The position numbers and the translations under genes were made by a program. From NCBI RefSeq assembly GCF_001746415.1, contig NZ_MEHJ01000001.1:1-64000 (forward strand): 64,000 nt of DNA. The letters run 5' to 3'. The DNA is from Streptomyces agglomeratus. Lineage in GTDB: Bacteria > Actinomycetota > Actinomycetes > Streptomycetales > Streptomycetaceae. Shown here piece after piece: positions 29,800-49,553 of the stretch. How positions within the stretch are numbered: position 1 is the first letter of the stretch; each line of letters opens with the position of its first letter. Below the pieces are notes generated by a model. It had not been told where the DNA came from and searched no databases. It saw nothing but the letters and a program-made list of their open reading frames with translations.

Positions 29800-30799
29800 G
29801 CGTCGCCGACGGTGCCGAGGATGGGTGCGGCGCCGGCTTCGGACAGGCGCTGGGTGTAGCGGATGGACAGGTATTGACTGCCGGCATCGCTGTGATGCAC
29901 CAGCCCGTCCAGGTCGCCCACGCCGTCGCGGTCAGGGGACCAGATCGCCATTTCCAGCGCGTCCAGGACGAGCGCGGTGCGCATGTGGTCCGCCGCGCGC
30001 CAGCCGACGATCTTCCGGGAGGACACGTCCAGGACGAAGGCGACGTAGACGGTGCCGACCCGGGTGGCCACGTAGGTGAAGTCGGTGACCCACAGCTGGT
30101 TCGGCGCCGTGGCGGTGAAGTTCCGTTTCACCAGGTCCGTCGGCCGCTCGGCGGCCGGATCGGTCACGGTGGTGACCTTCTTCCTCCCACGCACCGCGCC
30201 GGTCAAGTTGAGGACCCGCATCAGGCGCTCGACGGTGGAACGGGCCACGAGTATGCCCTCCCGGCGTAACTGCCGGGTGATCTTCCTTGCTCCGTAGACC
30301 CGGAAGTTGTCCTCGTACACGCGGGTGATCTCCTTCTTCAGCCATTGGTCCCGCAGCTCGCGGGCGGACGGGCGGCCCTTGCGGGCAACCGCGGCGTAGT
30401 AAGTGGACGGGGCGAACTGCAGCTCATTGCAGATCGGCTCGACCCCGAACTGGTCGCGGTGGGCGTCGACGAACCCGGTCATCTCGGCAGTCGCGGGTCG
30501 AGCTCCCGCGCGAAGAAAGCCGACGCGGCCTTGAGGGTCTTCACCGAACGCCGCAGCTCACGATTCTCCCGCTCCAGCTCCGCGATCCGCTGAGCATCCA
30601 CGGTCGAGGTTCCCGGCCGCTGCCCGACGTCGATCACCGCGCGCTTGACCCACTCCCGCAGGGCCTCACGGTGCACCCCGAGCTGAGTGGCGACCGGGGA
30701 GACCGAGCCGACCTTCTGACCGGTCTTCTGGCGTATCTCGAACACGAGCCGCACGGTTCGCTCCCGCAGCTCGGCGGGGTACTTCCTCGGTGCCGGCAT
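29800..30799 (-). mobile_element. IS3-family element, 3'-truncated OrfB
   Basis: OrfA 30479-30799 (106 aa): MPAPRKYPAELRERTVRLVF, VSPVATQLGVHREALREWVK, LERENRELRRSVKTLKAASA, FFARELDPRLPR. OrfB starts at 30482: MTGFVDAHRDQFGVEPICNE, NFRVYGARKITRQLRREGIL, PNQLWVTDFTYVATRVGTVY (first D), LDGLVHHSDAGSQYLSIRYT (second D), then ends abnormally near 29820 just after TVGDA; the glutamate motif is lost and the frame runs into unrelated sequence to 29715. So the element is dead. 29600-29800 shows nothing recognisable. Confidence 0.85.
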
Positions 30800-42027: not shown

Positions 42028-42576
42028 ATGGACTTTGAGCGCCCGGACTGGTTCGACCGCGCCACCGAATGGTGGTGCAGCACGGTGGGAAACGACCTGG
42101 CCCGCCATGCCCAGCCGGTCGGCATCTCATCGGACGGCGAGCTTGGCGTGCTCTGCTCAGATCAGGCCTGGTCCACCCAGATGAGACTCATGGCGCACCG
42201 TGTCGTCGAGCGCCTCAATGGGGCACGCCCCGATGACCTGCCGAAGGTGGCGGGCATCACCGTATTGAAGCCGGCCCCGGTCCCTGAGGAGCTGATCCAG
42301 CTGTGGTCGGACTTGGTGGGATCTGATCTTGCCGACCGGGTCCGTCCGCGCAGCCTGAGTGACTGGGGTCGGGAGTTGGCCACGGAGGCGGAGTGTGCCC
42401 ACGCACGCGATCTCCTGGCCCAACGCACACCCTTCGTTCTCGCCCGTCTACGGGCGACGCTGCCGGGCAGCTCCATCGTCCGGTTACGCACAAGCCACCT
42501 ACGGTCCGTCGGGGTCCTGATTGCTTCGTCGCCCGAGTTCTCCGACCGGGCCGCTGTGGAGGGGGCCTCCCCCTGA
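42028..42576 (+). CDS. DUF721-domain protein (DciA-like)
   Basis: 182 aa from ATG 42028. MDFERPDWFDRATEWWCSTV, GNDLARHAQPVGISSDGELG, VLCSDQAWSTQMRLMAHRVV, ERLNGARPDDLPKVAGITVL. The W-x-x-x-V-G-x-x-L-A-x-H-x-x-P and A-W-x-T-Q-x-R-L-x-A blocks define DUF721, the family of DciA, a helicase-loading accessory factor. The second half (LIQLWSDLVGSDLADRVRPR) looks like a repeat of the first. The stop codon is the first three bases of the IS3 element's left end (42574), so the original C-terminus was probably longer. Orphan copy on accessory DNA, perhaps plasmid-related. Confidence 0.75.
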   Translation: MDFERPDWFDRATEWWCSTVGNDLARHAQPVGISSDGELGVLCSDQAWSTQMRLMAHRVVERLNGARPDDLPKVAGITVLKPAPVPEELIQLWSDLVGSDLADRVRPRSLSDWGRELATEAECAHARDLLAQRTPFVLARLRATLPGSSIVRLRTSHLRSVGVLIASSPEFSDRAAVEGASP

Positions 42577-42633
42577 GTGGTGGACACGCTGATACTGGAT
42601 CTGCTTGATCCGGAGGAAGCGAGAAGACCGCCG

Positions 42634-42967
42634 ATGGCGATGAAGGACTATTCGGACGAGTTCAAGGCCGATGCCGTGGCCCTGTACGAGTCCACACCCG
42701 GGGCGATCTACAAGAGCATCGCCGCTGACCTGGGCGTCAACCGGGCGACCCTGCGGGAGTGGGTGCTGCGGGACCGCGAACGCCGTGGCGTAACCGCCGC
42801 GGCTGCGAAGCCGGGCGCCCAGCCTCGGGAGGCGGTGCCGTCCGCTGATCCGGACGAGCGGGTGCGGCAGTTGGAGGCCCGGGTGGCCGAGCTCGAGGCA
42901 AGTGAGCGCAAGCTCGCGACCGAGCGGGACATCCTGCGCAAGGCGGCCAAGTATTTCGCCGGAGATT
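42634..42967 (+). pseudogene. IS3-family OrfA, cut by intron
   Basis: MAMKDYSDEFKADAVALYES, IYKSIAADLGVNRATLREWV (helix-turn-helix), VRQLEARVAELEASERKLAT and ERDILRKAAKYFAG. After the last block the frame runs into intron sequence (CVLNTKESWL, stop 42997). The normal final residues and OrfB overlap are found again at about 48066. Confidence 0.85.
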
Positions 42968-43472
42968 GTGTCCTGAACACGAAAGAGAGCTGGTTGTAGG
43001 ACAGCTTTCAAGAGTGGCGCTGTGCGGAAGATGAAGGTTTTATGGCCCTTCGGAGCCGCCCTGCGGGGGGAGGCTTCAAACCGCCTCATGCTGCGTTAGC
43101 TGAAGACTGTCGTGGTGAGCGATGAGGAAAAGGCGCCGTAAGAGGCGTCAGGTGGGGACCGGGAAGACGAACGCAAGTGAATCGCTGCTGACGTGTCGAA
43201 ACGAAAACAGACGACATCAAAACCGGGGTGTTCTCCGGACTCCGGGATGAGCCTGGCGGGAGCCCGTCTATTGGCCAGGTGGTGTCCGGCATGCAGGCGA
43301 CGTGAGCCCGGTCTGCGGCTTCCGCATGGAACAGGAGAAGGCAAGCCCCGATACTGCCCGCCGTGCAGCGGCGGCGAGAGGGAGCGCCTCAAGCAGTGGA
43401 CACTGCGAGGGGCTGAGTACCGATGCGGGGCGGGCCGGCGGACCGGCTCGTAGTAGTGGTGAAGCCCCTGTA

Positions 43473-43943
43473 ATGGGGGCGGAGCGAAGGGGCCGGGTCG
43501 TTCGTGACTGTGTTGATCGCATCAACCGGACGGTGTCCGGGAGGAGTTCGGTGGACCAGTTGAAGTCGCAGACCAAGCCGTTTGAGATTTCGAAGTGGGC
43601 AGTCAAGGAAGCCTGGGAGGAAGTCAGAGCGAATAACGGAGCCCCGGGAGTGGACGGGCAGAGCATCGACGACTTCGAGAAGGACCTGAGGAACAACCTC
43701 TACAAGGTCTGGAACAGGATGTCGTCAGGTTCATACTTTCCGCCCCCGGTGCGAGCGGTGGCAATTCCCAAGCCACAGGGAGGCGGCGAAAGAATGCTCG
43801 GCATTCCTGCTGTCGCCGACCGCGTGGCTCAGACCGTCGTGGCCCGGCATCTCCTGCTGAGGGTGGAGCCAATTTTCCATCCCGACAGTTTCGGATACCG
43901 GCCTGGGCGGTCGGCCTTGGATGCGGTGGAGAAGTGCCGGAAG
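43473..43943 (+). pseudogene. Group II intron reverse transcriptase, part 1
   Basis: ATG 43473 is the likely start (frame open from 43302). SSVDQLKSQTKPFEISKWAV, ANNGAPGVDGQSIDDFEKDL (RT0/RT1), WNRMSSGSYFPPPVRAVAIP, KPQGGGERMLGIPAVADRVA, QTVVARHLLLRVEPIFHPDS and FGYRPGRSALDAVEKCRK (RT2-3). It is interrupted by the ISAs1-type element at 43944; the open frame beyond is accidental. Confidence 0.9.
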
Positions 43944-43979
43944 CAAGGCTTCGGCGTAGTCGCACCTCGTCCTTTTTGA

Positions 43980-45195
43980 TCATGTGAGGCCGAGATGGGT
44001 GAGGGTGCGGGTTTGGTCCCTGGCTGTCCGGCGGAGGCCGGCGGCGATGTTGCGGACGCCGGCGAGGCGGAGGGCTCCGATTGCGAGGTTTCTGTAGGTC
44101 GCCATCGCCTGGGGTGCGTTCCCGGTCCGCAGTTGGGAGGCGTCCTCGGCGAAGGTGACGTCTCTGATGTGGTGCAGGGCCTCGACCGTCCAGTGCCCGC
44201 GGATCAGTTGGGCGACCCGGGCGGGCGGGGCCTGTTCCGCGGCGAGGCTGGTGACCGCGTAGATGGTCTTGAGGCTGATCTTCCCCGTCGTGCGATTCAC
44301 GCGGCGGCGGACGATCTGGACGGCCTGGCGGGCGCCAGGGAAGAGCAGGTTGTTGACCGTGCAGACCTTCAGCCTGCGGATCTCACAGCGTCCGTGCCCG
44401 TCGTGCGGGTGCGGTCCTGGAGCGGAATCTGTTGCCAGGGAAGGGATTTGAGCTGCGTGCTGAGTTTCTTCGTGTTGCGCTTCACGATCACGATGTAATG
44501 GGCGTCCCGCCCCCGCAGATAGGTGGCGTGGTCGGTTTGAGTGTGCAGGGCATCGCTGGTCACGACGGTGCCAGACAGGTCGGGCAGCGTGTCCAGCAGG
44601 GGTCGGAAACGAGTGATCTCGTTGGTCTTCTCACCGACGTCCATCTGTGCGAGGACCAGCCCGCCGACGTGGTCGCAGGCGGCCAGGAGGTGGACTCTCC
44701 GGCCCTTGGCGCGGGCGGCGCCCCGCAGCGACTTCCCGTCGACGGCCAGTGCCCGCAACCCGCCCGCGTGCTGCTGCCGGCCGGCAAGCCAGGTCCCGAC
44801 CGCCCGGTCCAGGGCGTTTGCGTCGATCCTGGCCAGGACTCTGCGGATCGTTGTCTCCGCAGGCCAGGAGCGTTTCGGGAAGAGTGGGTCGACGCGGATA
44901 CCCAGCCGCTCGAGGAGTTCTTCGGGGGCCTCGGCCACCCATTCACTCACCGCCAGCAGCGACCTCGCACCGGCGAGGACCGCGCAGGCGGTCAGGGCCA
45001 GCACCGCGGCGAGCGGATGCCGCACTCCGCGGGGATTACGCGGATCGGGGACCTGGGCGAGGCACTCCAGCAGGTCGGGGATCTCCCTGGGGGTGGCTCC
45101 CGGACGGGGGCCGAGTTGATCCAGGGCAGGGGGATCAGAGATGATACGTCGGCAGGCACGGACTTCCCAGGATTACAGAGCGTAGAGAACTCCAT
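43980..45195 (-). pseudogene. ISAs1-family transposase, two frameshifts
   Basis: Start ATG 45195: [20 protein letters not shown]. After a shift near 45110: [80 protein letters not shown] (first D), [40 protein letters not shown] (second D), [12 protein letters not shown] second shift near 44390 leads to [40 protein letters not shown] (E) and the end LTHLGLT at 43980. Order and motifs are those of ISAs1. Lesions suggest it is inactive. Confidence 0.85.
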
Positions 45196-45351
45196 GATCG
45201 CGGGCGTCCGTGCCTGTTCTGCACCCGACCCCGCCCAATCTGGTCATCCGTCAGGGAGCGGGCGTCATCCGACAACACCGAAGCCCTGTGCCGAAGCCCT
45301 GGGGCTTATGTGACCACGGAACGGCAGCCGACCAAGGCTCTGCCCACGGAC

Positions 45352-45642
45352 CTACTCGCCCGGCGGAACTCGAACGAAGCCCTCGGTCCAGTCATCCTCA
45401 TCGAGCTCGCAGGGGTCGAAGTAGAAGCACTCCGGTTCATCACGGAAGCCCGGTAGCAGTCGAGCCTGACGCACACGCTCTTCAACCCGTTCAAGGGTTG
45501 AGTAGATACCGAGCAGCTTTACGTCGTCGCCGTCCGACTCGTCGCAGAACACGCCACTCTCATCAACGTGCACTGTCGAGCCGTCGTCGCCAGCTTCGTT
45601 CTGGTGGCCGACATGCCACAGCGGATACACGATCACGGGCGC
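45352..45642 (-). CDS. DUF7336-like small protein inside the ISAs1-type element
   Basis: The core reads VIVYPLWHVGHQNEAGDDGS, TVHVDESGVFCDESDGDDVK, LLGIYSTLERVEERVRQARL, LPGFRDEPECFYFDPCELDE, DDWTEGFVRVPPGE. By memory this is the DUF7336 type (V-x-x-L-W-H-V ... D-D-x-K-L-L-G-V-Y ... R-A-R-L-L-P-G-F-x-D-x-P), a small immunity- or housekeeping-like family of unknown role. Either the GTG at about 45632 or the ATG at 45660 could start it; about 95 aa. Intact, on the same strand as the transposase, 157 bp upstream of it and 81-99 bp from the right inverted repeat, so it travels with the element. Confidence 0.65.
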   Translation of the reverse strand, partial: APVIVYPLWHVGHQNEAGDDGSTVHVDESGVFCDESDGDDVKLLGIYSTLERVEERVRQARLLPGFRDEPECFYFDPCELDEDDWTEGFVRVPPGE

Positions 45643-45741
45643 GAAGCTACCAGCACTCAAGTTCCTGGACGTTCGGCACCCCTCGCCTCCTGGGCCCCCA
45701 CGATCACAAACCGGGCATCACGCGACTTCGCCGAGGCCCTG

Positions 45742-45871
45742 GTGCCGGAAGCGCTGTTGGAAACGGGACTGGGTGGTTGAATTCGACATCGCCAAGTTCT
45801 TTGACAGCGTGCCCTGGGACCTGCTGGTCAAGGCAGTGGAAGCGCATACCGACGCCGTCTGGGTGAACTTA
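45742..45871 (+). pseudogene. Group II intron reverse transcriptase, part 2
   Basis: CRKRCWKRDWVVEFDIAKFF then DSVPWDLLVKAVEAHTDAVW. The F-D-I-x-x-F-F-D-S motif is RT domain 3 with the first catalytic aspartate. Followed by the IS5-type element after ACTTA (45867-45871). Confidence 0.9.
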
Positions 45872-45878
45872 GAGGTCG

Positions 45879-46277
45879 TTAAGTCCGTTTCTGGTAATGG
45901 CCTCGTCCGGGTTGGGTGAGGAAGCCTTGGCGGGTGAGGCGGCCGAGGCGGCTGCGGGTGATGTTGACGGATGCCTCGTCGGTGGGCATGCCGAGGAGTT
46001 CGTGCAGCTCGCGAGCTCGGAACACCTGGTCGGGGTGCTGGTTGAACGCGTTCACGATGTCCTGGTAGGCGGTGTTCGCCTCGGGTGGATCGGGTTCGGC
46101 TCCTGCTGGTGCGGCCTCCGTGATGACTTTTCGAGTGGTGGCCAGATCCGTGAGTCGCGCTTCGCTCTCGGCCAGGGCAGCGGTGAGGTGCTCGATCTGG
46201 CCGCGTAGTTCTGCGGCCCGGGTGGTGGCCTCGTCCTGCTGGGTTTGAAGGTAGGCCAGGAGCTCGGAGACGTTCAC
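45879..46277 (-). CDS. Accessory coiled-coil/winged-helix-like protein of the IS5-type element
   Basis: 132 aa from GTG 46277, overlapping the transposase stop as GTGA. N-terminal coiled coil (VNVSELLAYLQTQQDEATTR, AAELRGQIEHLTAALAESEA, RLTDLATTRKVIT), a Pro/Ala linker, then an HTH-like half: AYQDIVNAFNQHPDQVFRAR, ELHELLGMPTDEASVNITRS, RLGRLTRQGFLTQPGRGHYQ. The second half looks like a small winged helix (R-L-x-R-L-x-x-x-G-x-L). Ends six bases from the inverted repeat. Function presumably in transposition or its control; I do not know of a described role. Confidence 0.7.
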   Translation of the reverse strand: MNVSELLAYLQTQQDEATTRAAELRGQIEHLTAALAESEARLTDLATTRKVITEAAPAGAEPDPPEANTAYQDIVNAFNQHPDQVFRARELHELLGMPTDEASVNITRSRLGRLTRQGFLTQPGRGHYQKRT

Positions 46278-47127
46278 GCGGCCAGCCCGAGAATGTCGCG
46301 CCAGGCCGGAGCGGGGGTGGTGAGGCGGCGGGCCATGTTCGCGGTGGAGGCCCAGTAGACGCGTGAGGCGGAGGTGTCGGGCCGGTGGTCGTACTCCCGG
46401 GCCAGACGCCGGTGCAGCATCAACGTGCCGTTCGTCTGCTCGACCACCCACCGCTTCGGCTGCGGACAAACCCTTTGCCCTGGTCAGCAGGGTTGCGACG
46501 GACGACCTCGACGTCGATGCCCAGCAGGACGCCGTGGATGATGACTTCGTCCTTGAAGCCCTGGTCCACCAGCGCTTTCTCCAGGCGCATCCCGCACCGC
46601 TCGGCGGCCTGGTCGAGCAGGGCGGTGCCGGCGGCGTTGTCGTGCGCGGAGGCGGCCAGGACGACGACGCCGATGATCAGCCCCAGAACGTCGACGGCCA
46701 GTCCCCGCTTGCGCCCCGACACCTTCTTGTTCGCGTCCAGCCCCGTCGTGGTCTTCGGGACACCCGCCGCGGCGCGGACGGACTGCGTGTCGATGATCAC
46801 GAGGGACGGGTCCTCTAATCGGCGGGCCTTCTCCCGCACCTGGCAGCGCAGGAGTTCCTGGATCCGCTGGTCCAGCCCGTCCTCACGCCACAGGCCGAAG
46901 TAGTAGAACACCGCCGACCAGGCCGGGAAGTCATGCGGCAAAAGGCGCCACTGACAGCCCGTCCGGTTCTGATAGAAGATCGCGTTCACGACCTCCCGGA
47001 GGTCGCAGGACCCGGGATCTCCGGTCGCCGACCGCGCCACCCTGTCCTGCTTCCAGGCCGTGATCATCGGCTCGATCAACGCCCACTGCTCGTCTGATAA
47101 GTCGCTGAGGTACGGCTCTCTCTTCAC
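46274..47127 (-). pseudogene. IS5-family transposase, one frameshift
   Basis: ATG 47127: MKREPYLSDLSDEQWALIEP, EVVNAIFYQNRTGCQWRLLP, HDFPAWSAVFYYFGLWREDG, DPSLVIIDTQSVRAAAGVPK (first D), KKVSGRKRGLAVDVLGLIIG, EKALVDQGFKDEVIIHGVLL (second D). Near 46465 a one-base shift is needed for PKRWVVEQTNGTLMLHRRLA (E), then STANMARRLTTPAPAWRDIL. Stop 46274-46276. One lesion only. Confidence 0.85.
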
Positions 47128-47231
47128 GCTCGCATCTCAACATGGACATGCTCACCAGGCGGCCGGGACGGCGATCAGTACCACGATCGAGCGATCACGA
47201 ACCGAGGAAGACCGGACTTAACGCCCACTTA

Positions 47232-47983
47232 TATGTGCGGCGGTGGCTCGCTGCCCCGCTTCAGATGCCCGACGGCTCTCTGCTGGAACGGGAGCGGGAA
47301 CCCCGCAAGGGGCTCCCGTGTCGCCCGTCATGGCGAACCTGTTCCTGCACTACGCGTTCGACACCTGGATGGCCCGGGAGTTCCCGTCCGTCTGGTTCGA
47401 GCGGTATGCGGATGATGCGGTGCTGCACTGCGTCACCGAGCGTCAGGCCCGCCAGGTACTGGCCGCGCTCACGGACAGGATGGCCGAGGTCGGGCTGCGT
47501 CTGCACCCGGCCAAGACCCGGATCGTGTACTGCCGGGACGGGAATCGCCAAGGCTCCTACGAGCACACGGCGTTCACGTTCCTGGGATACACCTTCCGCG
47601 CCAGGAGGAACCGGAGTCGACACGGGAACCAGTTCCTGGCGTTTGACCCGGCGGTCAGCAAGGACGCTCTCAAGAAGATGGGTCGGGAAGTGCGGAGCTG
47701 GCATCTGCACACCCGCACCGATCTGACCTTCCAGGAGCTCGCCCGGAGGATCAACCCTGTCGTGGCGGGCTGGATCAACTACTACGGCCGTTTCAGGCCC
47801 TGGGAGTTCACCTCTTTCATGACACGCATCAACTCCTACCTGGTGCGTTGGATCCGCAAGAAGTACAAACGGCTCGCGGCCAAGCGGAAGGCGCTGGCGA
47901 AAATGCAGGAGATCGCCCGGCGATACCCCCGCATGTTCGCGCACTGGCGCATCACCCCGACCGTGAGTGCCGTGCTGGTTTGA
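47232..47983 (+). pseudogene. Group II intron reverse transcriptase, part 3
   Basis: VRRWLAAPLQMPDGSLLERE, then GTPQGAPVSPVMANLFLHYA (RT4), WFERYADDAVLHCVTERQAR (RT5 with the Y-A-D-D catalytic motif), AEVGLRLHPAKTRIVYCRDG (RT6), YEHTAFTFLGYTFRARRNRS (RT7), then the maturase X region RRINPVVAGWINYYGRFRPW, FMTRINSYLVRWIRKKYKRL and the end FAHWRITPTVSAVLV, stop 47981-47983. There is a one-base irregularity around 47310 (GTGAACC region). With the insertions removed the protein would be nearly complete. Confidence 0.88.
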
Positions 47984-48081
47984 GGATCAGGACGACAAGA
48001 GCGGAGTGACGAGAGATCGTCACGCTCCGTTCTGTGAGGGCCGGAGGGTGAAATCCCCTCCGGCTACTCGGCGACGAACTG

Positions 48082-48975
48082 GTGATGAGCCGCTTCCAGT
48101 TCGTTGACGACCATCGCAACACCTACGAGGTGAAGCGGCTCTGCCAGGTCCTGGACGTGAACCGGTCCAGCTACTACAAATGGCTCGCCGGCGCCGAGGC
48201 CCGGGCCACCCGGCAGCGGGAGGACCGGATCCTGGCCGAGGAGATCCGCGAGGTCCACGGCGATCCGGCGGCGCCTACGGCTCCCCGCGCGTGACCGCCG
48301 AGCTCCGCGAGAAAGGACGGCGGGTCAACGAAAAGCGGATCGCCCGGATCATGCGGACGTTCTCCATCACCGGAATCCGCCTGCGCAGACGCGTGCGCAC
48401 CACCGTCCCCGACCCGGCCACCTCACCGGTCCCGGACCTGTTCCAGCGGGACTTCACCGCCACCGAGCCGGGGCGGAAGTACATGGGCGACATCACGTAT
48501 CTCCCACTCTCATGCGGGAAGTTCCTCTATCTCGCGACCGTGCTGGACTGCTTCAGCCGCAAGGTCGTCGGCTGGTCCATCGCCGACCACATGCGCACCG
48601 GCCTGGTCGCCGACGCACTGCGGATGGCGGCCTCGACCCGAGGCGGCCTGGACGGTGCCGTGTTCCACTCCGACCACGGGGCGCAATACGGCTCCCGGGC
48701 CTTCGCCGCCTCTGCGACCAGTTCGGAGTGACCGATCGATGGGCGCGGTCGGCACCAGCGCCGACAACACGGCCTGCGAAAGCTTCCACGCCTCCCTGAA
48801 ACGCGAGACCCTCCAGGGCACCCACGACTACGGTGACGCCGACACCTGCCGCAGGACCGTCTTTGCCTGGCTGACCCGCTACAACACCCGCCGCCGGCAC
48901 TCCGCCAACGGCCACCTCAGCCCCAACGAATACGAACGCCGACACCACACCGCTAAACTCACGCTCGCCGCGTGA
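48082..48975 (+). pseudogene. IS3-family OrfB, two frameshifts
   Basis: ATG about 48085: MSRFQFVDDHRNTYEVKRLC, QVLDVNRSSYYKWLAGAEAR. Near 48270 the frame changes: GAYGSPRVTAELREKGRRVN, FTATEPGRKYMGDITYLPLS (D), LDGAVFHSDHGAQYGSRAFA (D). Near 48715 it changes again: MGAVGTSADNTACESFHASL, KRETLQGTHDYG (E), NTRRRHSANGHLSPNEYERR. Stop 48973-48975. Belongs to OrfA at 42634. Confidence 0.85.
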
Positions 48976-49000
48976 TCAATAACCGCGTGCCCACCTTCAC

Positions 49001-49553
49001 GGGGAAGGCCCGAGGCCGCACTCATGGACGTGTGGCACGATGCGACACAGGCTTTCGGGCCTGAGCACCCACTGTGGATCGCGCACTCTGGAGAGACGGC
49101 GGCAGACCAAGTGGTGGAGGAAATGGGTGGACGCGATCCAGAGCGCCACCCCCCTGCCTCGACCGCTTGACGCGTTCGCGTACAGGGCCAACGTGGACAG
49201 GGACGGGCCGGAAGCCGTTCGCCGACGGAACGAACGGCTGGTGGCGGGCCACCACGACCTATGTTTGGTCCTTGCTGCCCGGGCTGGCGAGAGCCTCCCC
49301 CCTTGCCGACCTTGCCCGCGAACGCGGCTTGCCTATGCGGCAGCACACGCAGCAGGCAAAGGGTTGACACCCGTACGGGATAGGTGGCCAGGGCGAAGCG
49401 GGGGTCTCCCCCGCTGACACGGCGGGCGCGACCTGGGCTGTTGCGGTCAACACGCCGTGTAGATAAAAGAGTTGGAGCGCGTCGACCGGTTTTCCTAGGG
49501 TGATGAGGCGTACTGGACCGGTGCGCATGGTTCACGAAGGGGGAACAGCTCGA
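49001..49553. other. Spacer with a short open frame
   Basis: ATG 49024 opens 49 codons (MDVWHDATQAFGPEHPLWIA, HSGETAADQVVEEMGGRDPE) of protein-like character, stop near 49170, perhaps a gene fragment. Otherwise no gene. The end holds the promoter of the next gene (AAGGGGGAACAG ribosome site). Confidence 0.35.

Follow-up and report, generated by a model that had tools for sequence, protein, structure and literature searches.

At the left chromosome end of Streptomyces agglomeratus, we find a nest of mobile elements, i.e., an insertion sequence (IS) of the IS3 family, a group IIB intron within its transposase genes, and two further insertion sequences within the intron's reverse transcriptase (RT) gene. 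The stretch analysed (the window) comprises positions 1 to 64,000 of NZ_MEHJ01000001.1 (assembly GCF_001746415.1), that is, the left end of a contig of 8,325,022 bases (C1). As judged from the sequence, it is highly probable that an IS3 copy took up an endonuclease-less IIB intron, later split by an ISAs1- and an IS5-family element, and that this intron belongs to a lineage whose first and penultimate bases are either U and G (U1/G) or G and A (G1/A). The two bases have probably switched as a unit between G1/A and U1/G about 11 times, which would be natural compensatory evidence for the contact of the intron ends in the second splicing step.

Boundaries and layers of the nest

The intron boundaries are given by empty sites. 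The genome holds six near-full and two partial intronless copies of the IS3 element, and all eight pass directly from the equivalent of 42965 to that of 48073. The intron thus covers exactly 42966-48072, and since the bases on either side differ, no boundary shift is possible. In relatives that align up to the ends, the first base is 42966/42967 and the last lies within 48069-48072; likewise, 10/20 of the listed plasmid matches of the left stretch begin at the equivalent of 42966 or 42967. A first-pass annotation, made from the sequence alone, had proposed a group II intron inside the IS3 transposase gene, which Rfam models, intronless copies and the pairing of exon- with intron-binding sites (EBS/IBS) bear out. 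Its boundaries (42968-48066) do not hold: a start at the GTGTC of 42968 is ruled out by intronless alleles and relatives, and the intron opens with UUGUG rather than GUG. That is, instead of the canonical GUGYG...AY the empty site fixes the ends as UUGUG...GC, with G (48071) as penultimate base. We infer the branch A at 48066.

Features are collected in Table 1. The domain I core and domains V and VI score above the Rfam gathering cut-offs, as had been anticipated for the domain V fold, and the intron encodes an RT/maturase with GIIM domain (59 bits). The pairings EBS1-IBS1, EBS2-IBS2 and EBS3-IBS3 are all present, which PMC4424553 gives as the rule for class IIB. The first and last RT pieces match model positions 3-116 and 176-353 of TIGR04416 (147 and 165 bits; neither reaches 300, the cut-off for the whole protein), with the RVT_1 match of the first piece just under its cut-off. 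A Pfam scan of the RT found no endonuclease match, and the open reading frame (ORF) ends after GIIM.

The expected alignment with intron proteins is thereby found, and uninterrupted relatives exist as well: a second intron copy in the same genome (copy 2) lacks both inner elements, and a relative from Streptomyces sp. MBT65 (L050) has an RT open for 427 amino acids that aligns along most of its length (best solved group II RT match: 6ar1, residues 27-384/427). The claim that removing the inner elements restores the RT frame exactly is half right. The frame is continuous across both insertion joints, but there is a 1-nt frameshift at about 47293-47303, which copy 2 shares with the window and L050 lacks. 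The RT is therefore broken beyond its two insertions, and the open RT frame of an active mobile intron is missing. As it falls within a short run of G and recurs identically at two loci of one assembly, the frameshift might be a systematic base-calling error, or be bypassed, in which case the RT would have been intact before the two insertions. However, 4/6 near-full intronless IS3 copies of this assembly keep an open 321-aa OrfB, which means that indel errors are not pervasive, and we consider this unlikely.

Both inner elements sit in the RT gene. The ISAs1-family element had been placed correctly, including its 10-bp duplication: within 42.0-49.2 kb, GTGCCGGAAG is found only at 43934 and 45742, and the site is empty in copy 2. 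A near-identical element (C1:133799-135596) is flanked by its own 10-bp duplication. Transposase, inverted ends and a duplication of this length are those of the ISAs1 family. The IS5-type element, proposed at 45872-47226 with the duplication ACTTA, does lie inside the RT gene, but its end is 47228 and its duplication TTA. ACTTA is ruled out by the TNA of other copies and by the right-hand AC being the element's own last two bases. Five further near-full copies occur in the genome. Among the six copies read (including the window), the TNA triplets of the two sides are identical in four and are combinations of TGA and TCA in two; the duplications of other genomic copies are TTA, TGA or TCA. Transposase, inverted ends and TNA duplication assign the element to the IS5 family, where we take it to belong to the IS1031-like subgroup. 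Both inner elements carry passenger-like ORFs, namely 45879-46469 (minus strand) in the IS5-type element, with a weak AbiEi_4 match below cut-off, and one of 102 aa at 45352-45660 (minus strand) in the ISAs1-type element.

Both insertion sites are thus seen empty in a natural intron copy of the same genome. Copy 2 is continuous at each of them, with one base differing at the IS5 site, and L050 is continuous across both as well. Neither inner element contains the other, which rules out the four-level nesting proposed before: the nest has depth three, the IS3 element enclosing the intron and the intron enclosing the ISAs1 and IS5 elements as neighbours. The order of events, said to be directly readable, can be read for IS3, intron and inserts; as the two inner elements stand side by side, their relative order is unreadable.

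For the IS3 element, homology extends about 12 nt beyond the ends proposed earlier (42574 and 49000), i.e., to 42561/2 and 49011/2. Its left part is 96.8-98.0% identical to the six near-full intronless copies. An OrfA with helix-turn-helix (HTH) domain, an OrfB with rve domain and overlapping frames mark the IS3 family. The last codons of OrfA are replaced by intron sequence, and OrfB is split in the window. With small indels in RT and OrfB too, no layer of the nest now looks autonomous. Two of the six near-full intronless copies have identical flanks, one on a small contig (C4:1415-2756) and one on the chromosome (C1:8012419-8013760); this pair reflects either a duplication of the region or a remnant of the assembly, and is perhaps one locus.

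All layers of the nest are repeats in this genome, which raises the question of an assembly chimera of collapsed repeats. Target duplications at both inner elements, matched IBS/EBS and exact splice boundaries are unexpected from such a collapse, and we regard it as extremely improbable.

Table 1. Features of the nest (window positions)
Feature	Position	Strand	Evidence
IS3-family element, left part with OrfA	42561..42965	+	HTH_Tnp_1 PF01527; intronless copies
IS3-family element, right part; OrfB (rve) frameshifted	48073..49012	+	Pfam; intronless copies
Group IIB intron, both inner elements included; ends UUGUG...CUCGGC	42966..48072	+	empty sites; relatives; Rfam
Group II domain I core	43033..43153	+	RF01999, 102 bits, E 8e-20, cut-off 36
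Domains V and VI	47997..48072	+	RF00029, 54.2 bits, cut-off 40; fold z-score -5.5
EBS2 CGAAA (exact place putative)	43202..43206	+	pairs with IBS2 TTTCG at exon -12 to -8
EBS1 TCTCCGG	43232..43238	+	pairs with IBS1 CCGGAGA at 42959-42965 in orfA
EBS3 (intron nt 329)	43294	+	pairs with first 3' exon base 48073
RT/maturase, first piece (start approximate, by L050)	43533..43943	+	RVT_1 27.7 bits; TIGR04416
RT/maturase, middle piece	45742..45871	+	continuous with neighbours in copy 2 and L050
RT/maturase, last piece, YADD and GIIM domain	47229..47983	+	Pfam; TIGR04416
ISAs1-family element	43944..45741	-	NF033564; inverted ends; 10-bp duplication
ISAs1 transposase, two frames	44369-45025 and 43980-44300	-	NF033564
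10-bp target duplication GTGCCGGAAG	left 43934..43943, right 45742-45751	.	two occurrences in 42.0-49.2 kb
IS5-family element, TTA flanks 45869-45871 and 47229-47231	45872..47228	-	NF033580
IS5 transposase	46420-47127	-	NF033580, above its cut-off

The terminal bases among intron relatives

The relatives of the intron are of two kinds, UUGYG...GC and GUGYG...AY. We scanned 152 RT units for both ends. The surrounding patterns were fixed and the last base had to be a pyrimidine, whereas any base was allowed at position 1 and at the penultimate position (n-1). Both ends were read in 80 units (49 G/A, 28 U/G, 2 G/G, 1 U/A). Of the other units, 71 were not scored as an end could not be read, owing to a contig edge, a truncated 5' part, an insertion, divergence or an end of CTCACC type, and copy 2 was excluded. 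In the G/G rows L066 and L132, the domain VI pattern had hit unrelated sequence with the same letters in both; the end of L066 was set by hand further on (CTCGAC, i.e., A), and L132 was dropped with its end not located. For the U/A row L081, EBS1-IBS1 pairing puts the start one base earlier, which gives G1. Five rows sharing both RT and flanks with others were removed and the window was added, leaving 75 rows with 68 distinct RT sequences. Here, 26 introns combine U1 with penultimate G, 49 combine G1 with penultimate A, and none is mixed.

On a tree built from 225 protein columns of the RT, with no ribozyme column among them, the terminal pair changes 11 times by parsimony, at least 9 of the changes on supported branches, and all independent pairs are concordant (9/9, p=0.0039). 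A preceding tree of 55 rows, whose labels were set by hand, showed 8 changes and 5/5 concordant pairs (p=0.0625); it included four CTCACC-type introns scored as A, of which none enters the 75-row tree. We also asked how well each column of the scored stretches (5', 347 nt; 3', 76 nt), position 1 apart, predicts position 1. The penultimate base predicts it in 75/75 introns, followed by EBS3 (65/75), with the remaining columns at 60 or less. The first base of the 3' exon is A or G for 22/26 U/G introns and C or T for 41/49 G/A introns.

Could the correlation reflect shared ancestry or an exchange of ribozyme parts rather than a base contact? The terminal label is clustered on the trees (0/500 shuffles are as low), and the tree of the ribozyme, built without the tested columns, resolves only in part. 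On the other hand, both trees require 11 changes, every independent pair is concordant, no other column comes near the penultimate base, and U/G introns are also found in lineages of about 50% RT identity (L165, L178) and in Micromonosporaceae (L091, L093). We thus judge this explanation quite improbable. Two results nevertheless weigh against a strict co-switch: 3/80 rows of the raw scan were mixed, two being reassigned by hand and one dropped, and the ribozyme tree has only 5 of its 11 changes on supported branches, with 5/5 concordant pairs (p=0.0625).

Some introns fall outside the scored set. Those ending in CTCACC (e.g., L037, L038, L041, L042, L150, L160) have G1 where the 5' end is readable. 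Depending on the placement of their end, the penultimate base is A or C; the end itself may be CC as in RmInt1. L103 ends in CTCGCC and has no readable 5' end. L051 and L126, which we counted as 5'-truncated, have an upstream GTGCGCC with 2 mismatches and would otherwise read G/G; no domain I similarity was found at this motif (shown for L051).

In this actinobacterial lineage, the first and penultimate bases would accordingly form one of two exclusive pairs that switch together, as is expected if both bases touch in the second splicing step, a contact that we take over from published work on other introns. The switch between U1/G and G1/A would have an analogue in AT-AC spliceosomal introns, whose terminal variants are paired as well. 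RmInt1 of Sinorhizobium meliloti, which we use for comparison, presumably has G1.

According to PMC4238363, group II introns have the consensus ends GUGYG/AY, and their first and penultimate bases form a contact of non-Watson-Crick type, credited there to Chanfreau and Jacquier 1993; the 3' end of RmInt1 is CC, and in vitro its penultimate G and U mutants show the most severe second-step defects. Penultimate G, among the two worst RmInt1 mutants in that account, is found in the present lineage only together with U1. In the literature consulted, the contact is described on the basis of biochemistry and modelling; in this lineage, evolution seems to have repeated the double-mutant experiment. 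As PMC10733145 describes G1 to contact domain VI before branching as well, U1 introns must differ in that contact, too. Our search found no report of natural U1/G introns or of natural covariation of the pair; subscription journals were mostly outside this search, some variations are said to have been described, and such a report may be in print. If the reading is true, annotation rules that demand GUGYG...AY set the boundaries of an entire group of introns wrongly. Boundary finders built on this consensus can mis-call such introns, as happened with the first-pass annotation.

Predicted site recognition and probable movement of the intron

Within the window, EBS1-IBS1 pairs at 6/6 scored positions. 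Across relatives, 67/74 introns pair fully with their own exon over 6 nt, compared to 12.3% when the exons are taken from other loci. Exon position -1 is paired by intron position 267 in 23/26 U/G and 40/49 G/A introns. For EBS2, the exon slice -12 to -8, which is the best of five slices tried, pairs fully in 44/74 introns (14.1% with other exons); the other 5-nt slices reach 17, 12 and 7 of 74 (12.5, 9.7 and 10.7%, respectively) and a 6-nt slice 15/74 (3.9%). EBS3 pairs in 70/74 introns with letters at these positions, the next columns being nt 1 (64) and then one with 45. From these predicted pairings, the intron is aimed at the orfA/orfB overlap of the IS3 element by EBS1, EBS2 and EBS3.

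Traces of the same site are found elsewhere, namely in copy 2, in L050 and in two other relatives: L109 has its 5' junction in an IS3-like orfA that has diverged, and L122 is what a deletion has left between flanks resembling IS3. L065 (Rhodococcus), a different member, is placed 22 bases beyond this point within another element of IS3 type, and L080 lies antisense in the orfB of a homologous IS3. Open pieces were computed beside 23 introns; seven, picked by eye and hence a biased sample rather than a rate, were sent to Pfam, and five match transposases. Introns of the same family also look inserted in one another (L028, L077, L078, L084). In three of them (L028, L077, L078), the sequence of the outer intron starts again at the equivalent of 43104/43105, directly after the end of another intron. 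This position in domain I is a repeated twintron site, with both sides of the inner intron visible only in L078.

Copy 2 (C1:7,707,057-7,709,002; L003 7058-9003) bears on how the intron moved. It is cut at the equivalent of 43887, where it joins sequence without IS3 similarity. Its 1,025 intron bases comparable with the window (57 + 127 + 841) show one mismatch, plus the one base at the IS5 site, while the 940 bases of the 3' exon show 21 mismatches and 16 gap bases. The divergence jumps at the splice site, as is expected for intron entry into two already diverged IS3 copies, and on this sequence pattern we infer retrohoming as the likely route. In copy 2 and in L050 (about 305), the 5' part of the intron is absent and the exact 3' junction to the IS3 is kept, a form that incomplete reverse transcription would leave.

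Alternatively, copy 2 may have arisen when IS3 copies recombined or underwent gene conversion, or by segmental duplication. Its truncation next to sequence unlike IS3 and the frameshifted RT in both copies, with no helper RT relative found in the genome at E <= 1e-40, speak for this; nearly identical intron parts beside 3' exons differing at 37 of 940 positions, with the change at the splice site, speak against it, and a duplication of the whole element would predict equal divergence of intron and exon. We consider such an origin a genuine possibility, although a doubtful one.

Several observations sit uneasily with the overall reading. Both intron copies in the genome carry the frameshifted RT, which is awkward for self-propelled movement. 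No other RT relative was found in the genome at E <= 1e-40 (7/14 first-look candidates scored), nor did we find a complete uninterrupted copy of the intron, copy 2 and L050 both lacking the 5' part. A broken intron in two IS3 copies may reflect a lost helper, recombination or a shared base-calling error.

The most probable history is as follows. A copy of the multi-copy IS3 near the left chromosome end received the group IIB intron at the orfA/orfB overlap, the intron RNA recognising its site by EBS1-IBS1, EBS2-IBS2 and EBS3-IBS3; under retrohoming, it would have entered through reverse splicing followed by reverse transcription. The RT gene was subsequently hit by one ISAs1-family and one IS5-family element, and RT and orfB also acquired small indels.

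Genomic setting and known systems

The genome comprises 9.13 Mb in five contigs. G+C is 68%, and intron and IS have near relatives in Streptomyces. RT relatives occur in 33/392 genus genomes at E <= 1e-40, and at E <= 1e-60 in 41/394 family and 20/394 class genomes (with overlap between the draws), i.e., they are not rare. Ten further ORFs within 33.2-54.3 kb comprise two transposases, two alpha/beta hydrolases, one cupin and five without match; no resistance gene was found among these ten. At 30408-30521 (minus strand), Rfam reports an ALIL pseudoknot (RF01497, 84 bits), which we take to be the frameshift signal of IS3-family elements and, hence, probably part of another such element. Unrelated queries match both about 28.5-34.8 kb of the window and about 4.8-11 kb of a second contig (C2) at constant offset; the start of C2 seems to share a stretch with the chromosome end.

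The nest cleanly exemplifies how mobile elements prey on one another, and the same genome has kept the empty alleles. An intron residing in an IS is already known from RmInt1; the switch of the terminal pair may be new to specialists.

RmInt1 (class IIB3/D), which resides in ISRm2011-2, is the closest parallel: it, too, is an endonuclease-less mobile IIB intron within an IS, whose EBS1, EBS2 and EBS3 pair with the host element (PMC4238363, PMC8914252). EBS3 is intron position 329 in both, perhaps by coincidence, and both have an unusual 3' end. An RT without endonuclease and residence in an IS make our intron a candidate member of class D (IIB3). Unlike in RmInt1, the host is an IS3-family element of a Streptomyces-like genome, and U1 is combined with penultimate G where RmInt1 ends in CC. 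With canonical group II introns it shares the domain I core, domains V and VI, and an RT/maturase with GIIM, whereas its first and penultimate bases are U and G and its relatives alternate between U/G and G/A. Bacterial twintrons (PMC4424553) likewise have mobile elements nested in an intron; here, however, the inner elements are DNA transposons, which splicing cannot remove separately. IStrons, in which a group I intron is joined with an IS (PMC4227781), also unite an intron ribozyme and an IS in one unit. In contrast, the window holds a group II retroelement that entered a complete IS3, and intron and IS keep separate mobility genes.

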